From contig JAFWSN010000004.1 in the NCBI GenBank assembly GCA_017519305.1, positions 1 through 51,548 on the forward strand: 51,548 nucleotides of DNA. Reading direction: 5' to 3'. Positions 1,672 through 51,443 of this stretch are shown here, piece by piece. This DNA comes from Candidatus Saccharimonadota bacterium (GTDB lineage: Bacteria; Patescibacteriota; Saccharimonadia; Saccharimonadales; Saccharimonadaceae). Numbering within the stretch: position 1 is the first letter of the stretch; each line of letters opens with the position of its first letter. The notes below the pieces were generated by a model. It made no database searches. It was not told the origin of the DNA and worked only from the letters and a program-made list of their open reading frames with translations. A program made the translations under genes and the position numbers.

Positions 1672-1821
1672 CTATTTCTTGTATAGTTCCATCTGTATTT
1701 CGTTATCGCGCTGCTCGATAATCACCACGTAGCGGGTTTCTAACAGGTGCAAAAGGCCCATGTCGATTACGTCAGCGCGTAGCGTAACCGGGTCTTTGGG
1801 TTTAACTTCAATAATCGCCAT
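1672..1821 (-). CDS. Small hypothetical protein after the reverse transcriptase
   Basis: This 49-residue ORF begins MAIIEVKPKD and ends MELYKK. It overlaps the last 14 bases of the reverse transcriptase gene and fills the gap before the lysis cassette, with a typical phage start-stop overlap. It is acidic to neutral with no membrane segment. No family was recognised. A link to the retroelement is possible only by position. Confidence 0.6.
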   Translation of the reverse strand: MAIIEVKPKDPVTLRADVIDMGLLHLLETRYVVIIEQRDNEIQMELYKK

Positions 1822-2998
1822 CTCTAATACGTTTATAGGTCTGTAATCTCTTTTTGTACTTATTCTTTAGGGCTACCACCTCGTAGCGGCCTTTTATGTA
1901 GATATATTCGTATGCAGGTCGCTCTATCATGCCTAAGACTTTCTTACGCGTACCGTATTCGTTGTGGTGTCGTAGCAAGCCCAAATAACTGTTTATAGAG
2001 CAAACGGCGTGCTCAACCTGCCGTAATGTCTTGGCGTTGTTTAACCGCCTGACGGCTGCAATAAAGTTGGTTATTGTGCGGTTGCAACAATACGATGCTT
2101 TGGGTTTTACGACGGCCCCGGTAAACTCTACGCCCTTGGTGTAGTGCTGAAAGTAGAATTTCTTAGGATTCAGGGTTAGGCCAAATTCGGCCAACTTATC
2201 CCGTATCAATGGCACGGCGTTAAGTAGTACGGCCTTATCTTGGTGTATGCAATAGAAATCATCTACGTAGCGGCCATGATACTTAATGCCTATTTCTTCC
2301 AAAAACCAATCAAATTCGTTTAACAGGAAATTGGCGAATAGTTGCGCAAACAGGTTGCCGATAGCAACGCCTTTGCCCTCGCCGTTAGTGAATAGCGATT
2401 TATTGGCGGGTAGGTAATCCCAATAATGCGCCGGGCTGTGCCTCTCGCAATTCTTTTCGGGGCAATGCAAAACGACTATCTGGCAAAGGTAGCGCAAATC
2501 GTCTATGTCGCTGCCGGTATAGTATTGAGTAATAAAGCAGTCTATCAGGTCGGCTAACAGGGCTTTGTCGATGCTCATAAAAAAGCCCTGTAGGTCTAAT
2601 TTCATAATCCAACAAGTCCGGGTGTAGTTCTCGCTGCAATCCCTAATATCCTGCTTTAGAATATTGATACCGTAAAGCTGCCCTTTCTCCTTACGGCAAT
2701 TAAAAGTACGCTGGCTAAATACCAACTCAAAAAGCGGCTCTAACCGTAGGGCTATATAGTGGTGTACTATTCTATCTTCAAAGGAGGCGGCAAACACTTC
2801 ACGATACCGGGGCCGCGTTACGACAAAGCAAATAGACTTTCCGGGCTGATAGACGCGGTTGTTAATCCTATCGCGTAAGGCGATAAGTTTAGTTTCGTAG
2901 TCCATTTCATAGACTATCGCGCTTGCCGTGCGACGCTTGCGCCGTCGGCAATCGTAATACGCTTCTAAAAGTCCATCTGTCGTTACCATATCTGACAA
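1808..2998 (-). CDS. Reverse transcriptase of a diversity-generating retroelement
   Basis: This 396-residue protein has the reverse transcriptase signature: LDLQGFF (residues 134-140) holds the first catalytic Asp, and YVDD (244-247) the metal-binding pair. The segment IGNLFAQ (213-219) replaces the QGxxxSP of retroviral and group II intron enzymes, and an IGxxxSQ-like motif here is the mark of DGR reverse transcriptases. With Avd it should copy the RNA of the template repeat with errors at adenines and lead to replacement of variable repeats. The template repeat lies 34 bases upstream of the start codon, the avd gene before that, and a target gene before avd, which is the classic DGR order. 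The gene looks intact. Confidence 0.97.
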   Translation of the reverse strand: MSDMVTTDGLLEAYYDCRRRKRRTASAIVYEMDYETKLIALRDRINNRVYQPGKSICFVVTRPRYREVFAASFEDRIVHHYIALRLEPLFELVFSQRTFNCRKEKGQLYGINILKQDIRDCSENYTRTCWIMKLDLQGFFMSIDKALLADLIDCFITQYYTGSDIDDLRYLCQIVVLHCPEKNCERHSPAHYWDYLPANKSLFTNGEGKGVAIGNLFAQLFANFLLNEFDWFLEEIGIKYHGRYVDDFYCIHQDKAVLLNAVPLIRDKLAEFGLTLNPKKFYFQHYTKGVEFTGAVVKPKASYCCNRTITNFIAAVRRLNNAKTLRQVEHAVCSINSYLGLLRHHNEYGTRKKVLGMIERPAYEYIYIKGRYEVVALKNKYKKRLQTYKRIRDGDY

Positions 2999-3032
2999 TG
3001 TTTATATACTACGTTTCTGCTTCCGTAAGAAG

Positions 3033-3139
3033 TGCTGAGACGGGCCGAACGTGATTCGTGTTCGATGCCTTAGTGTTGTTGTTGGCGTTGCCGTTGTTGA
3101 GGTTCAGATTCCAGGCGTTGGTCGCGCTGTACTCGGTAG
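3033..3139 (-). repeat. DGR template repeat (TR)
   Basis: This 107-bp non-coding segment between avd and the reverse transcriptase gene matches two segments inside coding genes, 3695-3801 and 40460-40566. Read on the minus strand it is rich in AAC and AAT triplets, as expected for a template built so that adenine mutagenesis spreads codons widely. It differs from the first copy at 16 sites and from the second at 12, and at every one the template has A on the minus strand. About 35 such adenines are present. The 3' end (TGAGACGGGCC as read on the plus strand) is unchanged in all three. Confidence 0.96.
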
Positions 3140-3229: not shown

Positions 3230-3619
3230 TTAACTTTCCGATTCCGGCTTACTCGCTTTTGTAAGTGAGTTTTTCCACGCTGTACTTTGCTTTCCTATTG
3301 CGTCCATCAGTTCAATGATATGTGCGTGCCGCCCTATTCCCTTAATCCAACGTCTTTCGCCCGCTACCCTGATTAGGGTTTTAAGCGTCTCGAATTCGGC
3401 TTTGAAACTCATTAAGTTTTGTACCCTGCCCGCCTTATCCATGTAGGCCGCTGCGTCTAACTCTATCAGGCTAACGGATAGTCTTTGCATTTCTGCGCCG
3501 ATAGTAAACTTATAGTCACGCGGAAAGTTGGGCGTAACGTCTAATATCTCATTGAGTAACGCCCTACAATCTAAGTATAGTTGTGTAGTAGATACTAACT
3601 TAATCGGTTTGTCTGCCAT
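3230..3619 (-). CDS. avd: DGR accessory variability determinant (Avd)
   Basis: This 129-residue protein reads as a helical bundle, and the segment FPRDYKFTIGAEMQ (about 32-45) is characteristic of Avd and related four-helix-bundle proteins. Avd forms a basic barrel that binds the reverse transcriptase and the template RNA and is required for mutagenic reverse transcription. The gene lies between the first variable-protein gene and the template repeat, the usual position. Its leader carries a GC-rich hairpin (3641-3662) and an A-rich stretch before the ATG. The C-terminus ends in a polar tail (KASKPESES). Confidence 0.9.
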   Translation of the reverse strand: MADKPIKLVSTTQLYLDCRALLNEILDVTPNFPRDYKFTIGAEMQRLSVSLIELDAAAYMDKAGRVQNLMSFKAEFETLKTLIRVAGERRWIKGIGRHAHIIELMDAIGKQSTAWKNSLTKASKPESES

Positions 3620-3640: not shown

Positions 3641-3662
3641 GTTCCCGGCTTTCGCCGGGAAC
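3641..3662 (-). promoter_or_regulatory. Hairpin downstream of variable repeat 1
   Basis: A perfect 9-bp stem (GTTCCCGGC and GCCGGGAAC) encloses TTTC, which is GAAA on the coding strand. It starts 32 bp beyond the 3' edge of variable repeat 1. In the Bordetella phage BPP-1 DGR, a GC-rich hairpin with a GRNA tetraloop beyond the variable repeat marks the target for retrohoming. The second variable repeat has a matching hairpin, and none is seen beyond the template repeat. It also fits a series of leader hairpins elsewhere in this genome, so it may have a second role for avd expression. Confidence 0.65.
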
Positions 3663-3682: not shown

Positions 3683-4450
3683 TTAAGCAATAAATGCTGA
3701 GACGGGCCGAACGTGAAACGTGAGCGACGCCTTAGTGCCGTTGCTGGCGTTGCCGGTGACGAGGTTCAGAAGCCAGGCGAAGGTCGCGCTGAACTCGGTA
3801 GAAGTCCAATAAGCGGCTTCGGCCAACTGCGTTGCACCACTAATCAGCGAAAGCGCGTAGTTAATCTTTGTCATATTGGCGTAAATCATCATCATTTCGC
3901 CCAATGACGGTAGCCACCACTTACCTGCTGTCAAGCCCTTAGAATTGGCATTTACGCGGCTGTAGTTCGCACAATATCCGGGGGCGTAGGCGTTGCTACT
4001 ACATTCGGCGTGCGTAATCTGCGCCGCCGTGTTGTTCTTACCGGCCCAATCGTTCAAAGCCGTAACGCGGTCTGACGTGGTTACGCCGCCACCACTAACG
4101 GCTGCGCTACTCCATGTCATAGACGATTCGGTAGGTGCTACGACTAAGATTTTGCCGCCCTCTACGACTACTACGCCGTCGGCGATTTGCCCGGCACTCT
4201 GTAGGCTTGGCCACTTGTGGGGCTTAACCATTCGGGGCGCGTCGTTGCTGTTGTCATGGTACATAATGAAAACGCCGTCCATCTGTACGTTTTGGTCTAC
4301 GCCTCCCATCATAGCCGCTTTCAGGTTTGCAAGCGAAATGGGGATTAACTTACCGCTGCTATCCCGCATAAGGATTCGGTCGGTGCTGTTGACGGTCGTA
4401 ACGTCTGTTACGCTGCTGTCATTCAATTTTTTTGTTTGCTTAACTGCCAT
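3683..4450 (-). CDS. DGR variable protein 1, tail-adjacent
   Basis: The 255-residue product ends in a C-type-lectin/formylglycine-enzyme-like fold of the DUF1566 kind. The blocks KWWLPSLGEM (about 178-187) and YWTSTEFSA are typical, and the variable region follows at residues about 217-252. Compared with the sequence encoded by the template, residues about 220, 224, 227, 231, 232, 236, 238, 243 and 245 are changed, most from Asn. The N-terminal part (about 1-50) is probably the attachment domain. Position directly after the tail fibre and a small membrane protein suggests a virion receptor-binding protein, which is inferred. Confidence 0.92.
   Translation of the reverse strand: MAVKQTKKLNDSSVTDVTTVNSTDRILMRDSSGKLIPISLANLKAAMMGGVDQNVQMDGVFIMYHDNSNDAPRMVKPHKWPSLQSAGQIADGVVVVEGGKILVVAPTESSMTWSSAAVSGGGVTTSDRVTALNDWAGKNNTAAQITHAECSSNAYAPGYCANYSRVNANSKGLTAGKWWLPSLGEMMMIYANMTKINYALSLISGATQLAEAAYWTSTEFSATFAWLLNLVTGNASNGTKASLTFHVRPVSAFIA
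3695..3801 (-). repeat. DGR variable repeat 1 (VR1)
   Basis: This 107-bp segment at the 3' end of variable protein 1 aligns without gaps to the template repeat at 3033-3139. There are 16 substitutions, all at template adenines on the minus strand. The substitutions are A to T, C or G, as expected for adenine-directed mutagenic retrohoming. Homology to the template stops sharply at 3801, while VR1 and VR2 share a further run (GAAGTCCAATA) that the template lacks. Confidence 0.96.
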
Positions 4451-38457: not shown

Positions 38458-39654
38458 TTAGTCTCTAATTAACATTGGCATTATCAGCATGGTTATTTCT
38501 TCGCTCAACGGCTGCACTCCCGGCTCAATGATAATCGCCCGGCTTTGGTCTACGATTCTAAACGTAACCTCTGTAGCCGCAACTATGCTTTTTAGCATCT
38601 TGATTAAACGGAAATCCTGCAAACCAAATTTGAACGGGTCGCCGTAGTAACTACAGGGCAAAACCTCGGTAGCCGAAAGCGAAAAATCGTAGTCGGCTGC
38701 ATCCATCTTTACGCTGCCATTATTCAGGTGTATAGTTATTAGCCCTGAATTGTTCGTGAATTGGCTAAGTCGCTCTAACGACTTTATCAGGGCTACGCGG
38801 TCGGTAGTAAAACCTTTGCTAAATTGCGTAGGTATCACGCTGTCGTAGTTAGGGTAGCGGCCTTCTATTGGTCGGCCTACAATGGTTAAACCGTCTACGA
38901 TTATCTGATATACCGGGGCGGGCTGTGGCTCTTTGCTGTCGGTTGGCCAATTCACATCGAAAGCGTTAAAGTCCATTTCGACAAAGCCGGTAGTCGGTAG
39001 TACCTTTTGCAGAATACCGATAATACGGCGCGGCAAAACAACGTCTGCCGGTTTCTCTGTCGTAATAGACTGCTTACGGATTTTCGCTAATACGTGGCCG
39101 TCGGATGCTACGAAATCGGTATGCTCCTTTTTCATGCTGATAACTACGCCATTCATTACCGGGCGTAAATCATCGTCGGCCATTGCAAACGCAAGGCGAT
39201 TCAGGATAGAGCGTAACCCCGGTGCTTCTATTTCGATATGCTGCGCCGTGTCGTAGTTAATGGCCGGTTTTCTTCTCGCGCTGTAGTCCTCGATGCCCTC
39301 AAATATAGGCAAAGCAAAACTACCTATTGAGTGCCTGACGATAACCTGATATTCCAATACGTCAAACTCTAAACTCTGGCCGTCTAACGACTTAATGGCC
39401 GATATAAGTTGTTTGGCATTAACGGCAAACGTCTTTTTATCCGCTGTCGGGTTTCCTATGTTTACCGTCTCGCGCATATAAATTTCGCTGTTGCTCGTTT
39501 CTATAGTGAGTTGGTCGCAATCAGCCGTAAATATGTAGCACTTAAACACATCAAACCAACCGCCTTGCTTATAGGTCTCGCGGTATGTGATTACGGCGTT
39601 ACGTGTCCGTTCTAACGCTCGTAATAGTGTATTCCTGTCTATCTGAAAATTCAT
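38458..39654 (-). CDS. DNA polymerase III beta subunit-like sliding clamp
   Basis: This 398-residue protein has the three-domain length of a beta clamp. The pattern includes KTFAVNAKQLISAIKSLDG, then FALPIFEGIEDYSARRKP (equivalent of LP--PAEDFP), VASDGHVLAKIRKQ (equivalent of ATDGHRLA), and EGRYPNYDSVIP, where bacterial clamps have FPDY--V. The C-terminus ends in MPMLIRD instead of the usual MPMRL. It should hold the phage polymerase on DNA. It overlaps the upstream small gene by four bases. Confidence 0.92.
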   Translation of the reverse strand: MNFQIDRNTLLRALERTRNAVITYRETYKQGGWFDVFKCYIFTADCDQLTIETSNSEIYMRETVNIGNPTADKKTFAVNAKQLISAIKSLDGQSLEFDVLEYQVIVRHSIGSFALPIFEGIEDYSARRKPAINYDTAQHIEIEAPGLRSILNRLAFAMADDDLRPVMNGVVISMKKEHTDFVASDGHVLAKIRKQSITTEKPADVVLPRRIIGILQKVLPTTGFVEMDFNAFDVNWPTDSKEPQPAPVYQIIVDGLTIVGRPIEGRYPNYDSVIPTQFSKGFTTDRVALIKSLERLSQFTNNSGLITIHLNNGSVKMDAADYDFSLSATEVLPCSYYGDPFKFGLQDFRLIKMLKSIVAATEVTFRIVDQSRAIIIEPGVQPLSEEITMLIMPMLIRD

Positions 39655-40403: not shown

Positions 40404-40421
40404 GCCCGGCTTTCGCCGGGC
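40404..40421 (-). promoter_or_regulatory. Hairpin downstream of variable repeat 2
   Basis: GCCCGGC and GCCGGGC form a perfect 7-bp stem with TTTC in the loop, GAAA on the coding strand. It lies 38 bp beyond the 3' edge of variable repeat 2. The same loop and core stem follow variable repeat 1. This is what BPP-1-type DGR target recognition would need. It is also the leader hairpin of the next gene. Confidence 0.65.
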
Positions 40422-40447: not shown

Positions 40448-41167
40448 CTAACTAATAAATGCTGAGACGGGCCGAACGTGATGCGTGCCCGATGCCTTAG
40501 GGTTGGTGTTGGCGTAGCCGCCGCTGAGGTACAGAGTCCAGGCGCTGGTCGCGCTGTACTCGGTAGAAGTCCAATACCAATCGTCTTTAATCGGGTCGCT
40601 TCCTATCAGTTCCAAAGCCTGATTAAGTGCCTTACGATTCAGATAGATAAGGTACATTTCGCCCAAACTTGGGATATACTCGCCGTCGGCCAAAACGATT
40701 TCCTTGTTAAGTCCAATGGCTTTCAGGTGTTCGGTGTTGGCCTTGCCGTTCCAATCGGCTACCGCGTCCAAATAGTTGTCTTTGTAACCGTCGTATTTGG
40801 TTATGTCCTTACCTGACGTTAGCGTAATCTCTTCGCCATTCGCTGCGTCGTGCAAAGCCACTTTGAGGCTACGGCTGCCCCACTTAATACCTACGTATCT
40901 TACTTGGCTACCGTCTAAGCTGCCATCTACGCCCATATCGGGAATGAACGGTACTACGCCGCCGTCGGCCAAAACGTAGTAGATGCCATCGGCCATTGTA
41001 TTAGCCGTTTCGTCGATAAGCGGCTTAACGTCTCCGATACAACCAACTCTAATTTCATCCTCTTTCAGAAACTCGAAAGCGGCCTTACAAAAGTCTACCG
41101 TTTCCGGCTTTTCAATGTTTGCGAACTTATCCAAAAGTTGCATCTTTAATTCTTGGTTCTCTGTCAT
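40448..41167 (-). CDS. DGR variable protein 2, in the early region
   Basis: This 239-residue protein ends in the same fold as variable protein 1: YIPSLGEMYLIYLNRKALNQ, YWTSTEYSA and the variable region (about 201-236, ending HVRPVSAFIS). At least ten residues differ from those encoded by the template, most from Asn. The N-terminal 60 residues (ELKMQLLDKFANIEKPETVD) differ from those of variable protein 1 and show no signal peptide or tail-attachment pattern. The gene sits among replication genes, not tail genes. Its target is unknown; an intracellular or late-assembled binding protein are both possible. Confidence 0.9.
   Translation of the reverse strand: MTENQELKMQLLDKFANIEKPETVDFCKAAFEFLKEDEIRVGCIGDVKPLIDETANTMADGIYYVLADGGVVPFIPDMGVDGSLDGSQVRYVGIKWGSRSLKVALHDAANGEEITLTSGKDITKYDGYKDNYLDAVADWNGKANTEHLKAIGLNKEIVLADGEYIPSLGEMYLIYLNRKALNQALELIGSDPIKDDWYWTSTEYSATSAWTLYLSGGYANTNPKASGTHHVRPVSAFIS
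40460..40566 (-). repeat. DGR variable repeat 2 (VR2)
   Basis: This 107-bp segment aligns without gaps to the template repeat at 3033-3139, with 12 substitutions, all at template adenines on the minus strand. The pattern of changed sites differs from that of variable repeat 1, so it was diversified on its own. Around the circle it lies about 14 kb from the template. Confidence 0.95.
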
Positions 41168-41179
41168 AATGCTAAAATA

Positions 41180-41482
41180 TTAAATCGCTGAAAAATCACT
41201 TTCCGAAAGATGCCTTACGGCCTTGCTTGGTGTGCCATCGTTCTTAACCGGGTGGCAAAAGATAACCACGTAGCCGTAAGCGTCTATGCCGAAACTATCA
41301 TAGTAGTACGCTTCGCCTTTCTTGGTTTGGATTCTGTCGCCTGACTTAACGCCGTGCTGTGCCTCAAACTCTACCTGCTTGGCCTCTTTGAGTTGGCGCA
41401 ACAGGTCTGCTTTTTTGCCTCGCAAATCGTTAATCTGCTTGTTTGTCTGCTCAATTTGAGCCTCAATTTCCTTTGCTTCCAT
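41180..41482 (-). CDS. Hypothetical protein with N-terminal coiled coil
   Basis: Residues 1-40 of this 100-residue protein form a coiled coil (IEAQIEQTNKQINDLRGKKA). A compact C-terminal domain follows (VKSGDRIQTKKGEAYYYDSF). It lies just upstream of the second DGR target gene and could be co-expressed with it. No family was recognised. Confidence 0.65.
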   Translation of the reverse strand: MEAKEIEAQIEQTNKQINDLRGKKADLLRQLKEAKQVEFEAQHGVKSGDRIQTKKGEAYYYDSFGIDAYGYVVIFCHPVKNDGTPSKAVRHLSESDFSAI

Positions 41483-41528
41483 TCTTTCAGGGTGTTTAAT
41501 TGTTAATATTTCGTTAAATTCTCGCTCT

Positions 41529-41612
41529 AAGCGCGTTTCTCGCGTCGGGTGTATAGTTTATCACCTTGCGGCTTTTCTCGCGTCCTACGTCGTTTCTACC
41601 GTTTTACGTCTA
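41529..41612. repeat. Dispersed imperfect repeat, copy A
   Basis: This segment matches the genome junction region (51379-51407 continued in 1-54). Over the first 29 bases 28 are identical, and similarity then weakens to about three quarters with single-base gaps. Copy A sits in the non-coding gap between the 42-residue membrane protein and the next gene. In copy B the same bases could be read as a small ORF, while copy A has frame breaks and could be a decayed copy. Confidence 0.6.
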
Positions 41613-41757: not shown

Positions 41758-43713
41758 TTAGTCTTTGAGATAGTACGGCGTAGTGTACCCTGCACCTTTC
41801 AGGGGTAGGTCTCTGCACCATTCAATCGGTTTGCTAAACAGGGCCTCAACGTCGGCCAAAGTTTGGTCGGGCGTGGCCTCTACTATTATTTCATCGTGAA
41901 TGTGGAAAACCACGTTAAGCCATGCGGCCTTGGCGCGTAGTATTACGATGCCTAAGATGTCACGGGCTACGGCTTGTACTATGTTCTCGGTAAGTTTACC
42001 GCCGTAGGTACGTACCTTGCCCCATTTCTTCGTAGTCTGGTTAAGGCCCTCGTACTCTATTATTTCGTGGTCGCCTCGCCATCCATCGTTATACTCTGTG
42101 CCTATTTCGGCGCGTGGGTAACAGATAGTGCGCCCTGACGGTAGCGTAATAGTAAGCATACCCCAACGCTTGCCGATAACGATATTACGATACACCGTTA
42201 CGCTCTCGCCGGTCTTAATGGCCGTCAAAGCCGCCCTTTCTATAACGCTCCACATCTTGACTATACGCGGGTTGCTGTCACGCCAAAGGGCTACAATCTG
42301 TTTTTCTTCGGCTTCGGTAAGTCCTAACCGGCTACCGCCCATTGCCTCCAAAGCCGAAACGCCGCCACCGTAGCCCAACGCCAAAGTAGCAATCTTTCCC
42401 TTTTGGCGTAGTTCCGCGTTTTGTCCGTGCTTCTCTACGGGTACTTTGAACATCTTAGAGGCGTTGGCGCAATAGATGTCGCCGTTAGTCCTGAATACGT
42501 CCAATACCCATTCTTCACCGGCCAACCATGCAATAACCCTGCACTCGATAGCCGAAAAGTCGCAAACGTGGAAAGTGTGGCCGGGCGCGGCAATAAACGC
42601 CGTGCGTATCAACTCGCTAAGTACGAAAGTGACGTTACCGTAGTTTAGTTCAAACTCTTCTAAGTCGCCCTGACGTACCAAACTGCGGGCGTAGTCCAAA
42701 CTCTCCAAATGGTTTTGCGGTAGGTTCTGCACCTGTACCAACCTACCGGCCCATCGGCCTGTACGTGCTGCGCCGCAAAACTGCAAAAGTCCATGTATTC
42801 GGCCATCGTTGCAGACGCATTTCTGCATAGCCTCGTATTTCTTGTTAGAGGTCTTACCCATTTCCCGGCGTATAGCCAAAACCTGCTGCGCCTTGGGCCA
42901 ATAGATAAGTTTCTTATCCAAATCGTCTAAGTTGGCTTTGTTGAGACTTGCAACGGTAATGCCCGTTACCTTGTGTAGCCAATCCTTAATCTGTGCCGGG
43001 CTGTTGGGATTATCCATGCCGGTAAGCTGCTGCGCCTGTTTCAGTAGTTCGGCCTTATACTCTTCGTCAAACCGGGCGGCTGCATCTACCAAAACGCGGT
43101 CTATCATCACGCCCCGGTCGTTAATTTCTTGGTCGGCTACGTACAAATCTTCGTCAAAGGCGGCGGGCTTTAGACGCTGTACCTTTTTCTTAATGGCTTG
43201 TTCTACCTCAACGTCTCTAATATTGTACTCTTTGAATACCTGCCATTTGTCGGGCGCGTCGCTTGGTAGATGCCGTTTGCCTGTCTTTGGCGCGGGTACG
43301 CTAAAGTATCTAATCAGGGCCTTACCCTCTGTCATTTTGCCCTCTGCCAAACGTAGCACCTCGCCGCATTGCCCCAACGAAAGCGGTAAGCCCATCCGGG
43401 CGGCTAATACCATCGTGCAACGCCATTGCGCCGGGTCTAAGAGTTTACCCCCAAAGAAATAGACGCTAATACAGATTCTTTCAAAGGCGGCGTTAAACGC
43501 GGTCTTGATAACGTCCGGGTCTGTCAGGGCTGCAAATACATCGTCGGGCAATTTCTCGCCCTGTGCTAAGTCAACGCAAAGCACCGGCCCGCCGTCAACG
43601 CTATACGCGAAAAGCAATATAGTAAAGTCCGGGGCCTCAACGTACTTGTAAACGCCGCAATTAACCAAATCGTTACTGCTGTACGTTTCTATGTCTATTC
43701 CTAATTCTCGCAT
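41758..43713 (-). CDS. Family A DNA polymerase
   Basis: This 651-residue protein has an N-terminal 3'-5' exonuclease start (LGIDIETYSSNDL) and the polymerase motifs RTGRWAGRLVQVQNLPQN, DFSAIECRV (motif A, about 384), LALGYGGGVSALEAMG (motif B, about 448) and FHIHDEIIVEA (motif C, about 607). It replicates phage DNA, probably with the phage sliding clamp. The start overlaps the preceding stop by one base. Confidence 0.95.
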   Translation of the reverse strand: MRELGIDIETYSSNDLVNCGVYKYVEAPDFTILLFAYSVDGGPVLCVDLAQGEKLPDDVFAALTDPDVIKTAFNAAFERICISVYFFGGKLLDPAQWRCTMVLAARMGLPLSLGQCGEVLRLAEGKMTEGKALIRYFSVPAPKTGKRHLPSDAPDKWQVFKEYNIRDVEVEQAIKKKVQRLKPAAFDEDLYVADQEINDRGVMIDRVLVDAAARFDEEYKAELLKQAQQLTGMDNPNSPAQIKDWLHKVTGITVASLNKANLDDLDKKLIYWPKAQQVLAIRREMGKTSNKKYEAMQKCVCNDGRIHGLLQFCGAARTGRWAGRLVQVQNLPQNHLESLDYARSLVRQGDLEEFELNYGNVTFVLSELIRTAFIAAPGHTFHVCDFSAIECRVIAWLAGEEWVLDVFRTNGDIYCANASKMFKVPVEKHGQNAELRQKGKIATLALGYGGGVSALEAMGGSRLGLTEAEEKQIVALWRDSNPRIVKMWSVIERAALTAIKTGESVTVYRNIVIGKRWGMLTITLPSGRTICYPRAEIGTEYNDGWRGDHEIIEYEGLNQTTKKWGKVRTYGGKLTENIVQAVARDILGIVILRAKAAWLNVVFHIHDEIIVEATPDQTLADVEALFSKPIEWCRDLPLKGAGYTTPYYLKD

Positions 43714-48593: not shown

Positions 48594-48725
48594 TTACTTA
48601 TTTACTTACTTATACCTTTGGCGGAAAAGAAAAACTGCCGTATCTTTGCAGTTGGTTATTATTCGATAGTTGGGCTTAGATGTCCGACAGCCTTTCTTGT
48701 ACCGCTACTTAGTTACTTACTTATA
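48594..48725. promoter_or_regulatory. Operator-like direct repeats at the genetic switch
   Basis: Two 21-bp direct repeats, 48594-48614 and 48705-48725, match at 19 positions and share TTACTTACTTATA. The first abuts the -33 box of the rightward promoter; the second lies at the start of the leftward transcript. This suits a repressor that controls both promoters, perhaps the HTH protein at 48823. Confidence 0.55.
48617..48648 (+). promoter_or_regulatory. Rightward promoter of the lysogeny genes
   Basis: TTTG (48617-48620), 20 bases, then TATCTTTG (48641-48648) fits the Bacteroidetes consensus. Transcription would start near 48655 and give a leader of about 170 bases before the repressor ATG at 48823. 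It runs against the leftward promoter. Confidence 0.75.
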
Positions 48726-48732
48726 TCGGGTG

Positions 48733-48764
48733 CAAAGATAGACGTTTTCGGGTAGACTACCAAA
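48733..48764 (-). promoter_or_regulatory. Leftward early promoter
   Basis: On the minus strand the site reads TTTG, 20 bases, TATCTTTG. It points to the early genes starting at 48571, with a start near 48726. It faces the rightward promoter, so the first about 70 bases of both transcripts overlap. Confidence 0.75.
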
Positions 48765-50034: not shown

Positions 50035-51246
50035 ATGGCAAAATCTACCTTACGACTTGATACCCGCCGCCCTTTGAAAGATGGTACTTACCCGGTGCAA
50101 ATCGTTGTCGGCTACGGTACAAACATCTATCTTAGCACCGGGATATACGTAGCCCCTGACGAATGGGATAGCGTTACGAAACGCTGCACCGGCAAAGGCG
50201 CAAAGAAACTTAACGACGTGCTTACTACCCTGCTAACGTCTGTTGGTAGCCGTATTTTTGACTTGATGGAAAACGGGCAATGGCGTAAACTCACGCGCCC
50301 ACAAATTAAGGAAATGCTTACCAACTTGGACTTAGATAAGCCCACTATTGGCATACCGTCTATCTACGACCTTATACAGAAAACCTTAGAGGGCCGGGCA
50401 AGCGGTACAAAGTACATAGCCAAAACCGCTATTATCAGGCTTAACAAATTCTGTGGGGATTCCACGAAACTATACTGCGAACAAATAACCCCGGTGTGGA
50501 TAGACGATTATTATACGTCGCTTTCTGACTTGGCCGTTAATACCCGTGCCGCATATATCAAAGTCCTACGCCGGGCGTTTAACTATGCTCTTGACCATGA
50601 TATTACGACTAATAACCCATTCAGGCACTACAAAGTCAAAACAGAAGAAACGCGGATGCGCGTATTACCTGTAGAGAAAATGCGCCAACTCGTAAACCTC
50701 GAAACACGCTACCATTATACGGAATACCGCGATTTGTTCATGCTGTCTTTCTATCTTATCGGTATCAACTTGGCCGATTTGTCGAAACTCACCCCGGAAA
50801 GCATCGTAAACGGGCGCATAGAGTACCGGCGGGCAAAGACGGGCAAACTCTACAGCATTAAGATAGAGCCGGAAGCGCAAGCCATTTTGGATAAGTACAA
50901 AGGCGAAAAGTATCTGCTAAGTATGTTTGACCGCTGCACCAACGCCAAAGCATATCAGGGTACGTTAGACAATGCGCTGGCGCGTATCGGGCCACCGATA
51001 GACGAAAAGCATAAGAACGGCCAACCGAAACTAAAGCCGATAGACAAGAAACTAAGTTGGTATTGGGCGCGTTATTCGTGGGCCACCTATGCCGCTGAAT
51101 TGGATATACCAAAGGACACCATAAGCGAAGCGTTAGGCCACTCTCACGGTGCAAAGGTAACGGGTATCTACATTAAGTACAACCGGGATAAGGTAGACGC
51201 GGCAAACCGCAAAGTCATAGACTACGTGTTAGGAAATGGCAAATAA
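50035..51246 (+). CDS. Tyrosine recombinase integrase
   Basis: This 403-residue protein has the three-part plan of Bacteroidetes integrases: an N-terminal arm-binding domain (RLDTRRPLKDGTYPVQIVVG), a SAM-like core-binding domain (about 105-205) and a catalytic domain. Visible active-site residues are K268 (RAKTGK), R346 (YWARYSWAT), H369 (LGHSHG) and Y379 (GIYIKY). The first catalytic Arg is not in its usual place; the segment reads FYLIGINLADL (239-249 or so). It should insert and excise the prophage. Confidence 0.93.
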   Translation: MAKSTLRLDTRRPLKDGTYPVQIVVGYGTNIYLSTGIYVAPDEWDSVTKRCTGKGAKKLNDVLTTLLTSVGSRIFDLMENGQWRKLTRPQIKEMLTNLDLDKPTIGIPSIYDLIQKTLEGRASGTKYIAKTAIIRLNKFCGDSTKLYCEQITPVWIDDYYTSLSDLAVNTRAAYIKVLRRAFNYALDHDITTNNPFRHYKVKTEETRMRVLPVEKMRQLVNLETRYHYTEYRDLFMLSFYLIGINLADLSKLTPESIVNGRIEYRRAKTGKLYSIKIEPEAQAILDKYKGEKYLLSMFDRCTNAKAYQGTLDNALARIGPPIDEKHKNGQPKLKPIDKKLSWYWARYSWATYAAELDIPKDTISEALGHSHGAKVTGIYIKYNRDKVDAANRKVIDYVLGNGK

Positions 51247-51407
51247 CTTACCGTGTCCTGATAACGTGTTAAGAAATCGCGTTTTTCTTGTTATATTTGG
51301 CCGTCGGCGGCAAAAACGGGCGTTTATCGCCGATTTAGGCGTTACTAAGTGTTAAAATTTCGCCGAAAATCGTTTTTAAGCGTGTTTCTCGCGTCGGGTG
51401 TATAGTT
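51247..51407. other. Intergenic region after the integrase
   Basis: This stretch continues through the circle junction to base 121. It contains a TATATTTG -7-like sequence near 51292 without a clear -33 box, a small GC hairpin (GCCG-TCGG-CGGC near 51300) and copy B of the dispersed repeat. Phage attachment sites are often beside the integrase gene, so attP may lie here or in the region at 49.8-50.0 kb. No core sequence can be named without a host junction. Confidence 0.4.
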
Positions 51408-51443
51408 ATAACCCCAACGGCCTTTAACGCGCTCTACGGCCAT
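51345..51443 (-). CDS. Possible small ORF crossing the circle junction
   Basis: On the minus strand the bases encode 32 residues from an ATG at 51441-51443 (MAVERVKGRWGYNYTPDARN), or about 51 residues from an upstream TTG. The ORF follows the spanin candidate in reading order. The repeat at 41529-41612 holds a broken version with the same peptide core (NYTPDARN). It may be a real small gene with a decayed copy, or a non-coding element. Confidence 0.35.
   Translation of the reverse strand: MAVERVKGRWGYNYTPDARNTLKNDFRRNFNT

Follow-up and report, generated by a model that had tools for sequence, protein, structure and literature searches.

A remote second DGR target with a C-type-lectin-like domain in the replication region of a phage genome and its relatives

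One diversity-generating retroelement (DGR) serving two targets, one of them distant, is already reported, as is a DGR target outside the structural genes. The first case comes from the 'Bacuni' phages F1, F2 and F4 of Bacteroides uniformis, in which ORF 43 was identified in 2021 as a distant second target; the accessible part of that paper names both targets as putative fimbrial tip proteins for adhesion (PMC8143477). The second is Quimbyvirus, described in the same year, whose second C-lectin target (ORF 80/84) lies outside the structural genes on the other strand, and for which a part in the conflict between phage and host, not in the virion, was proposed (PMC8008677). In the two-target DGRs of nd4 and nd12 one template repeat (TR) serves two C-lectin targets; the same paper proposes for tentaclins a binding of intestinal or immune cells, and calls the role of the second target unclear (PMC10743442). 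The same verdict on second targets in phage DGRs is found elsewhere (PMC8008677), and a large DGR survey was unable to detect remote targets (PMC8144416).

The phage genome and its DGR

The stretch of DNA analysed here (the window, 51,548 nucleotides) is a phage genome with a 141-nt terminal repeat (terminal redundancy), giving a circle of 51,407 bases, and nearly all long genes are carried on its minus strand. It belongs to a 786-kb bin in which no 16S was found. The nearest database copies are in MAGs labelled Saccharibacteria and Elusimicrobia, and the isolate matches are Prevotella and other Bacteroidales. Probably the phage contig was misbinned and its actual host is a Bacteroidales bacterium.

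The DGR cassette has the order T1-Avd-TR-RT (4450-1808), with T1 adjoining tail genes. The second target, T2, is located in the replication region. The features concerned are:

1808-2998, minus strand: DGR reverse transcriptase, RT (RVT_1 E 1.9e-16; phrog_1423 E 1.4e-74)
3032-3139, minus strand: TR with its IMH* end, between Avd and RT
3230-3619, minus strand: Avd accessory protein (bAvd PF22296 E 2.9e-25; phrog_3206)
3641-3662, minus strand: hairpin with GAAA loop and 9-bp stem behind VR1
3683-4450, minus strand: T1, cassette-adjacent tail-side target with C-terminal C-lectin domain (Lcl_C E 5.4e-8, just under cut-off)
3694-3801, minus strand: variable repeat VR1 within T1 (16/16 differences from TR at template A, 107 nt)
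38458-39654, minus strand: sliding clamp of DnaN type with three DNA_pol3_beta domains, downstream of T2
40404-40421, minus strand: hairpin GCCCGGC-GAAA-GCCGGGC behind VR2, a DGR target-site hairpin/cruciform element (7-bp stem, GRNA loop)
40448-41167, minus strand: T2, remote DGR target gene, 239 aa (ORF, family search, dN/dS)
40459-40566, minus strand: variable repeat VR2 at the 3' end of T2 (12/12 differences from TR at template A, 107 nt)
41180-41482, minus strand: 100-aa ORF separating the polymerase from T2 (ORF call), kept in near relatives
41758-43713, minus strand: DNA polymerase A (PF00476, phrog_17), upstream of T2
48733-48764, minus strand: promoter-like site of Bacteroidetes type heading the early genes of this strand, divergent with 48617-48648 (plus strand)

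VR2 lies about 14 kb around the circle from the cassette, as an earlier reading from the sequence alone had placed it. That reading also put T2 between the polymerase and sliding clamp genes, which is right for the region; T2 is, however, directly beside neither, since the 100-aa ORF intervenes on one side and small ORFs on the other.

The TR holds 35 A, and over its first 107 nt the restriction of all VR2 differences to template adenines has a probability of 3.4e-7. Seven changed adenines are common to both repeats, nine are changed in VR1 only and five in VR2 only. The adenine-only pattern and the separate sets of changed positions, both claimed from the sequence beforehand, are therewith borne out. 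The sole non-A differences (C>T, then C>A) are common to VR1 and VR2 and fall past the repeat, within the IMH/IMH* end. As expected of a DGR target, the IMH at the VR end is distinct from the IMH* at the TR end, and a DGR-type RT, Avd and TR are all present in the same genome as T2. The hairpin behind VR2 starts 23 nt past the T2 stop codon and agrees with the rule for DGR hairpins, by which a GC stem of 7-10 bp with a GRNA loop follows the VR after a flexible spacer of 4-34 bp (PMC3240598). Its core occurs just twice in the window, behind VR1 and behind VR2, compared to 0.06 expected occurrences. The hairpin is intact in most relatives of the window backbone; in BS-TP1-like relatives the loop reads TTTTT, and the hairpin is missing from some relatives.

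Bacteroidetes-type promoter-like sites were matched five times in the window (1.5 expected), which is weak evidence for them. The divergent pair at 48617-48648 (plus) and 48733-48764 (minus), together with an integrase gene (50035-51246, plus), resembles a lysogeny switch. Two copies of a 62-nt intergenic repeat, 77% identical, are located in the gap between the polymerase and the T2 block (41528-41589) and at the integrase end (51377-51438).

Diversification and selection at T2

A comparison of VR2 between samples had been proposed along with the earlier reading. The comparison here covers the window and two near-identical database copies (L126 and L202), whose polymerases are 98.5-99% identical. 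Within this trio, 22-24 of about 115 VR2 positions differ, as against 8-10 of 420 in the middle of T2 and 4 of 330 in the downstream flank. Of the B. uniformis isolates, F1 and F2 are told apart by 16 SNPs in the T2 repeat, a single SNP in the T1 repeat and an insertion in the RT; F1 and F4 have identical T2 and differ by 18 SNPs in T1 and a few more elsewhere. These counts agree with the account given in the paper on these phages (PMC8143477).

In 22 phages with both targets, each compared with its own TR, 295 of 317 template-to-T2 differences are at A; for T1 the value is 301 of 318 (21 phages), with A making up 33% of the repeats in those phages. The share of template adenines changed is the same for both targets (0.38 in T2 vs 0.40 in T1, p 0.27), and T1 and T2 repeats each track the TR of their own phage. 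The TR of the remote cassette was found for BS-TP1, G024, G035, G031, G034, G028 and G029, and VR2 differences from it are adenine-only or nearly so. In BS-TP1 the TR matching T2 lies inside the annotated start of the RT gp25 (L121:26168-27649). Since this annotated start reads through the TR (HWSSTENSAHNSWNVNFNNGNSNNNNKYNANVVRPAVA), the start codon has probably been set too far upstream.

Outside the VR, dN/dS is mostly about 0.1 (0.09-0.15 between the window and close relatives, up to 0.31 for other pairs), by which measure the constant part of T2 is under purifying selection. Taken together, the repeat comparisons show at the sequence level that the phage's single DGR actively serves T2 as a second target, and they all but demonstrate retrohoming in trans into two genes from one TR.

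The earlier reading had itself reckoned with T2 being a fossil copy invariable among related phages, or one that had recently moved from a tail operon. The first of these is contradicted by VR2 variation among near-identical phages and by the selection on the constant part. We found no point in favour of a fossil or a recently displaced copy of the tail target, and the A-biased changes relative to each phage's own TR (295/317 in 22 phages), the intact hairpins in most backbone relatives, the old synteny and the low dN/dS make it hardly conceivable.

VR2 might also serve mainly as a reservoir of variants that recombine into VR1, the T2 protein itself being of little importance. The TR-derived flanks common to VR1 and VR2 could indeed recombine. 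We nevertheless regard this as very improbable, given the purifying selection on the constant part, the independent changes in F1, F2 and F4 with no exchange between the repeats, and the fact that T1 and T2 residues in one phage mostly differ (15% common non-N residues vs 11% expected under an imperfect null). This slight excess is also all that we detected when looking for matching T1 and T2 loops in one phage, as might reflect a common receptor. A different residue make-up of the randomised codons was considered as well and rejected, since T2 and T1 have the same amino-acid make-up at these positions. The loop composition therefore gives no hint of another kind of ligand.

The T2 family, its protein and its proposed role

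The search for homologues and their gene neighbours, likewise proposed beforehand, yielded 85 full-length ORFs, redundancy included (T2 profile search). Relatives of the window backbone have T2 behind DNA polymerase A in all cases where the flank is included, and this synteny extends to the B. uniformis phages, where T2 is 44% identical. In BS-TP1-like phages (102-112 kb) and in phages of 75-90 kb, which share a related early block, T2 is found near a UG27 reverse transcriptase. Further neighbours are RecE/RecT (G028), a replication initiator and ParB-like proteins (G029), a Mu-like transposase with an ATPase (L147) and a dUTPase (L212); polymerase A, clamp and VapE are also among the early-module neighbours. 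A template match was confirmed in at least four early-module types, namely the polymerase A type, the UG27-block type, G028 and G029. The cassette of BS-TP1 lies about 50 kb from T2 on the other strand, and in BS-TP1 and its relatives T2 is encoded on the strand opposite the tail genes. Among the loci examined, no T2 homologue was located in a tail operon. Synteny with the polymerase down to 44% T2 identity and homologues in the early modules of other backbones indicate that T2 is no recent departure from a tail operon, which disposes of the second reservation of the earlier reading. The remote placing of T2 is therefore old, conserved and still active, and several unrelated phage types have it in common.

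In L183 (1285-3948) the Avd-TR-RT cassette itself belongs to the replication region, where it immediately follows T2 and the polymerase; T2 is the adjacent target there, its VR containing a 3-nt insertion. The 54.7-kb phage G003 (L113, L114, L115, L281) shares the DGR RT (98%) and T1 (89%) with the window, and in the stretches read of G003 and of G012 we detected no homologues of the early genes present in the window. It follows from G003 that cassette and tail end move between phage backbones. We rejected the interpretation of G003 and G012 as cases of T2 loss, because they possess another early module and share just the DGR/tail end. A T2-like protein of crAssE-Sib was rejected as a DGR target, since the TR of this phage gives no match.

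The RT near T2 in BS-TP1, gp79 (L027:11476-12738), is annotated as a tail protein and belongs to the UG27 class (PADLOC DRT class; RT_UG27 E 4e-228). In the BS-TP1-like phages and those of 75-90 kb (also L019, L174, L190 and L214-L220), an RT of this class, 63-90% identical to gp79, follows T2 at a distance of 1.3-8 kb. A phage-borne RT of a class listed under defence here adjoins a hypermutated protein. We considered gp79 as a second, dedicated DGR RT and rejected this, as it matches RT_UG27 and the TR matching T2 is about 50 kb away.

The ColabFold model of T2 (54-sequence alignment, pLDDT 88.6) divides the protein into three parts:

40451-40996, minus strand: C-type-lectin-like domain, T2 codons 58-239 (pLDDT mostly >90)
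41003-41056, minus strand: disordered linker, T2 codons 38-55 (pLDDT <50)
41060-41161, minus strand: predicted N-terminal helical hairpin, T2 codons 3-36 (helices 3-15 and 22-36)

T2 is accordingly predicted to be a small protein in which a flexible linker joins the helical hairpin to a C-type-lectin domain with a randomised variable face. This agrees with the earlier expectation of a C-terminal lectin-like fold behind another N-terminus, and the N-termini of T2 and T1 show no resemblance. Confidence for the hairpin is good through residue 30 (block pLDDT 84-88), and the T1 model is of low confidence (pLDDT 63.5). Among solved structures, surface or adhesion proteins come closest: the lectin domain aligned (VIA-align) with BACOVA_04982 (4eps; Z 15.5, rmsd 2.9, 174 aligned) and the C-terminal domain of Lcl (8q4e; Z 11.3, rmsd 3.0, 117 aligned), and with Mtd (1yu2) at Z 5.7. 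The Pfam Lcl_C match to T2 remained under the cut-off. No known fold was matched by the hairpin in a structure search whose results were filled by the lectin domain. On reading the sequence by eye, the start of T2 (MTENQELKMQLLDKF...) contains no hydrophobic N-terminal stretch suggesting a signal peptide.

The N-terminal part including the linker (41003-41110) is present as another, block-swapped allele in the near-identical phages. Between the window and L126/L202 it aligns over 163 nt with 34 mismatches and a further 37 gap columns, with flanking genes about 99% identical. The linker allele of L126 and L202 recurs in the more distant L128.

We lean towards the view that T2 is a diversified protein which binds a variable host factor inside the cell, its variation being supplied in trans by the tail-linked DGR. 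This reading is favoured by the early position in several backbones, by the lack of an export signal and by the hosts of F1, F2 and F4. According to the established DGR mechanism, the RT-Avd complex would copy TR RNA and introduce errors at A. The cDNA would then replace VR2 in trans, about 14 kb away in the window and up to about 50 kb away and on the other strand in relatives, VR2 bringing its own IMH end and GAAA-loop hairpin. T2 might be produced early together with the replication proteins. Its hairpin would dock to a partner from phage or host, and the randomised face would bind the variable host factor, e.g. a defence or takeover target. The DGR would in this way follow host variation twice, at the surface via T1 and in the cell interior via T2. 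Of the earlier reading, the real, active remote target in the replication region has strong support; its proposal of a diversification serving something other than adsorption, already made for Quimbyvirus (PMC8008677), is consistent with the data.

In the main rival reading, T2 would be another virion or receptor-binding protein that happens to be expressed from an odd locus, its hairpin docking to tail or capsid and its diversification serving adsorption to a second ligand. It shares fold family and randomised-residue make-up with the tail target, its closest solved structure is a fimbrial tip protein, and both targets are termed putative fimbrial tip adhesion proteins in the paper on F1, F2 and F4 (PMC8143477). 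That paper gives F1 and F2 the same host and F1 and F4 different hosts (PMC8143477), so that among these three isolates the change of host from F1 to F4 accompanies T1 and not T2. Together with the early-module position kept in several unrelated backbones, the strand opposite the tail genes in BS-TP1 and relatives and an N-terminus unlike that of T1, this renders a virion role rather unlikely in our estimate. Gene position by itself is weak evidence for a non-virion role. Virion genes can occur outside the tail operon.

A soluble lectin freed at lysis, which would mask receptors on debris or competitors or bind mucus or host glycans, would suit the C-lectin fold, the gut and rumen setting and the related tentaclin proposal (PMC10743442), and release by lysis requires no signal peptide. 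The early-module position speaks against such a late, lysis-timed product, and we consider it improbable.

A recognisable protein family, kept in at least four early-module types that have a confirmed template match and diversified no less strongly than the tail target, argues for a second selected use of hypermutation in phages. It is possible, and we suggest it with more reserve than the role of T2 itself, that many Bacteroidales phages possess a dedicated, conserved family of early intracellular binders hypermutated in trans by a tail-linked DGR. If true, a single antibody-like diversifier would be used for entry as well as for an arms race inside the cell, directed at host defence or takeover targets. 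F1 and F2, which have the same host and differ almost solely in the T2 repeat, make the question directly testable.

Comparison with known systems

New here are the T2 family, its breadth, its architecture and its early position. In a literature search covering mainly open-access papers, we found no description of the family, of the hairpin-linker-lectin architecture, of the early position across backbones or of a diversification equal to that of the tail target. Early position, N-terminus, hairpin and wider family are likewise not treated in the accessible part of the F1/F2/F4 paper (PMC8143477).

ORF 43 of these phages is nevertheless a T2 homologue, 44% identical and located at the same spot behind DNA polymerase A. 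The cassette layout, the VR at the 3' end, the use of one TR for two targets and the variation between isolates are the same, too. The window phage belongs to a different species, is larger (51.4 kb) and has a clamp gene. The Quimbyvirus target resembles T2 in being a second C-lectin target away from the structural genes, and the hits from the collections searched included no record of ORF 80/84. The Quimbyvirus RT is read in three frames, whereas the RTs of the window and of G031 are single ORFs. Tentaclins have an N-terminal C-lectin domain followed by Ig domains. In T2, the C-lectin domain is C-terminal (residues 58-239) behind a helical hairpin, with no further domain. Fimbrial tip proteins of the BACOVA_04982 type are exported with a lipoprotein or signal sequence, which T2 lacks as judged by eye. 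With Mtd of Bordetella phage BPP-1, T2 shares the DGR mechanism, the IMH, the GAAA hairpin and the C-lectin fold, but Mtd is a cassette-adjacent tail-fibre tip, whereas T2 is remote and outside the tail operon.
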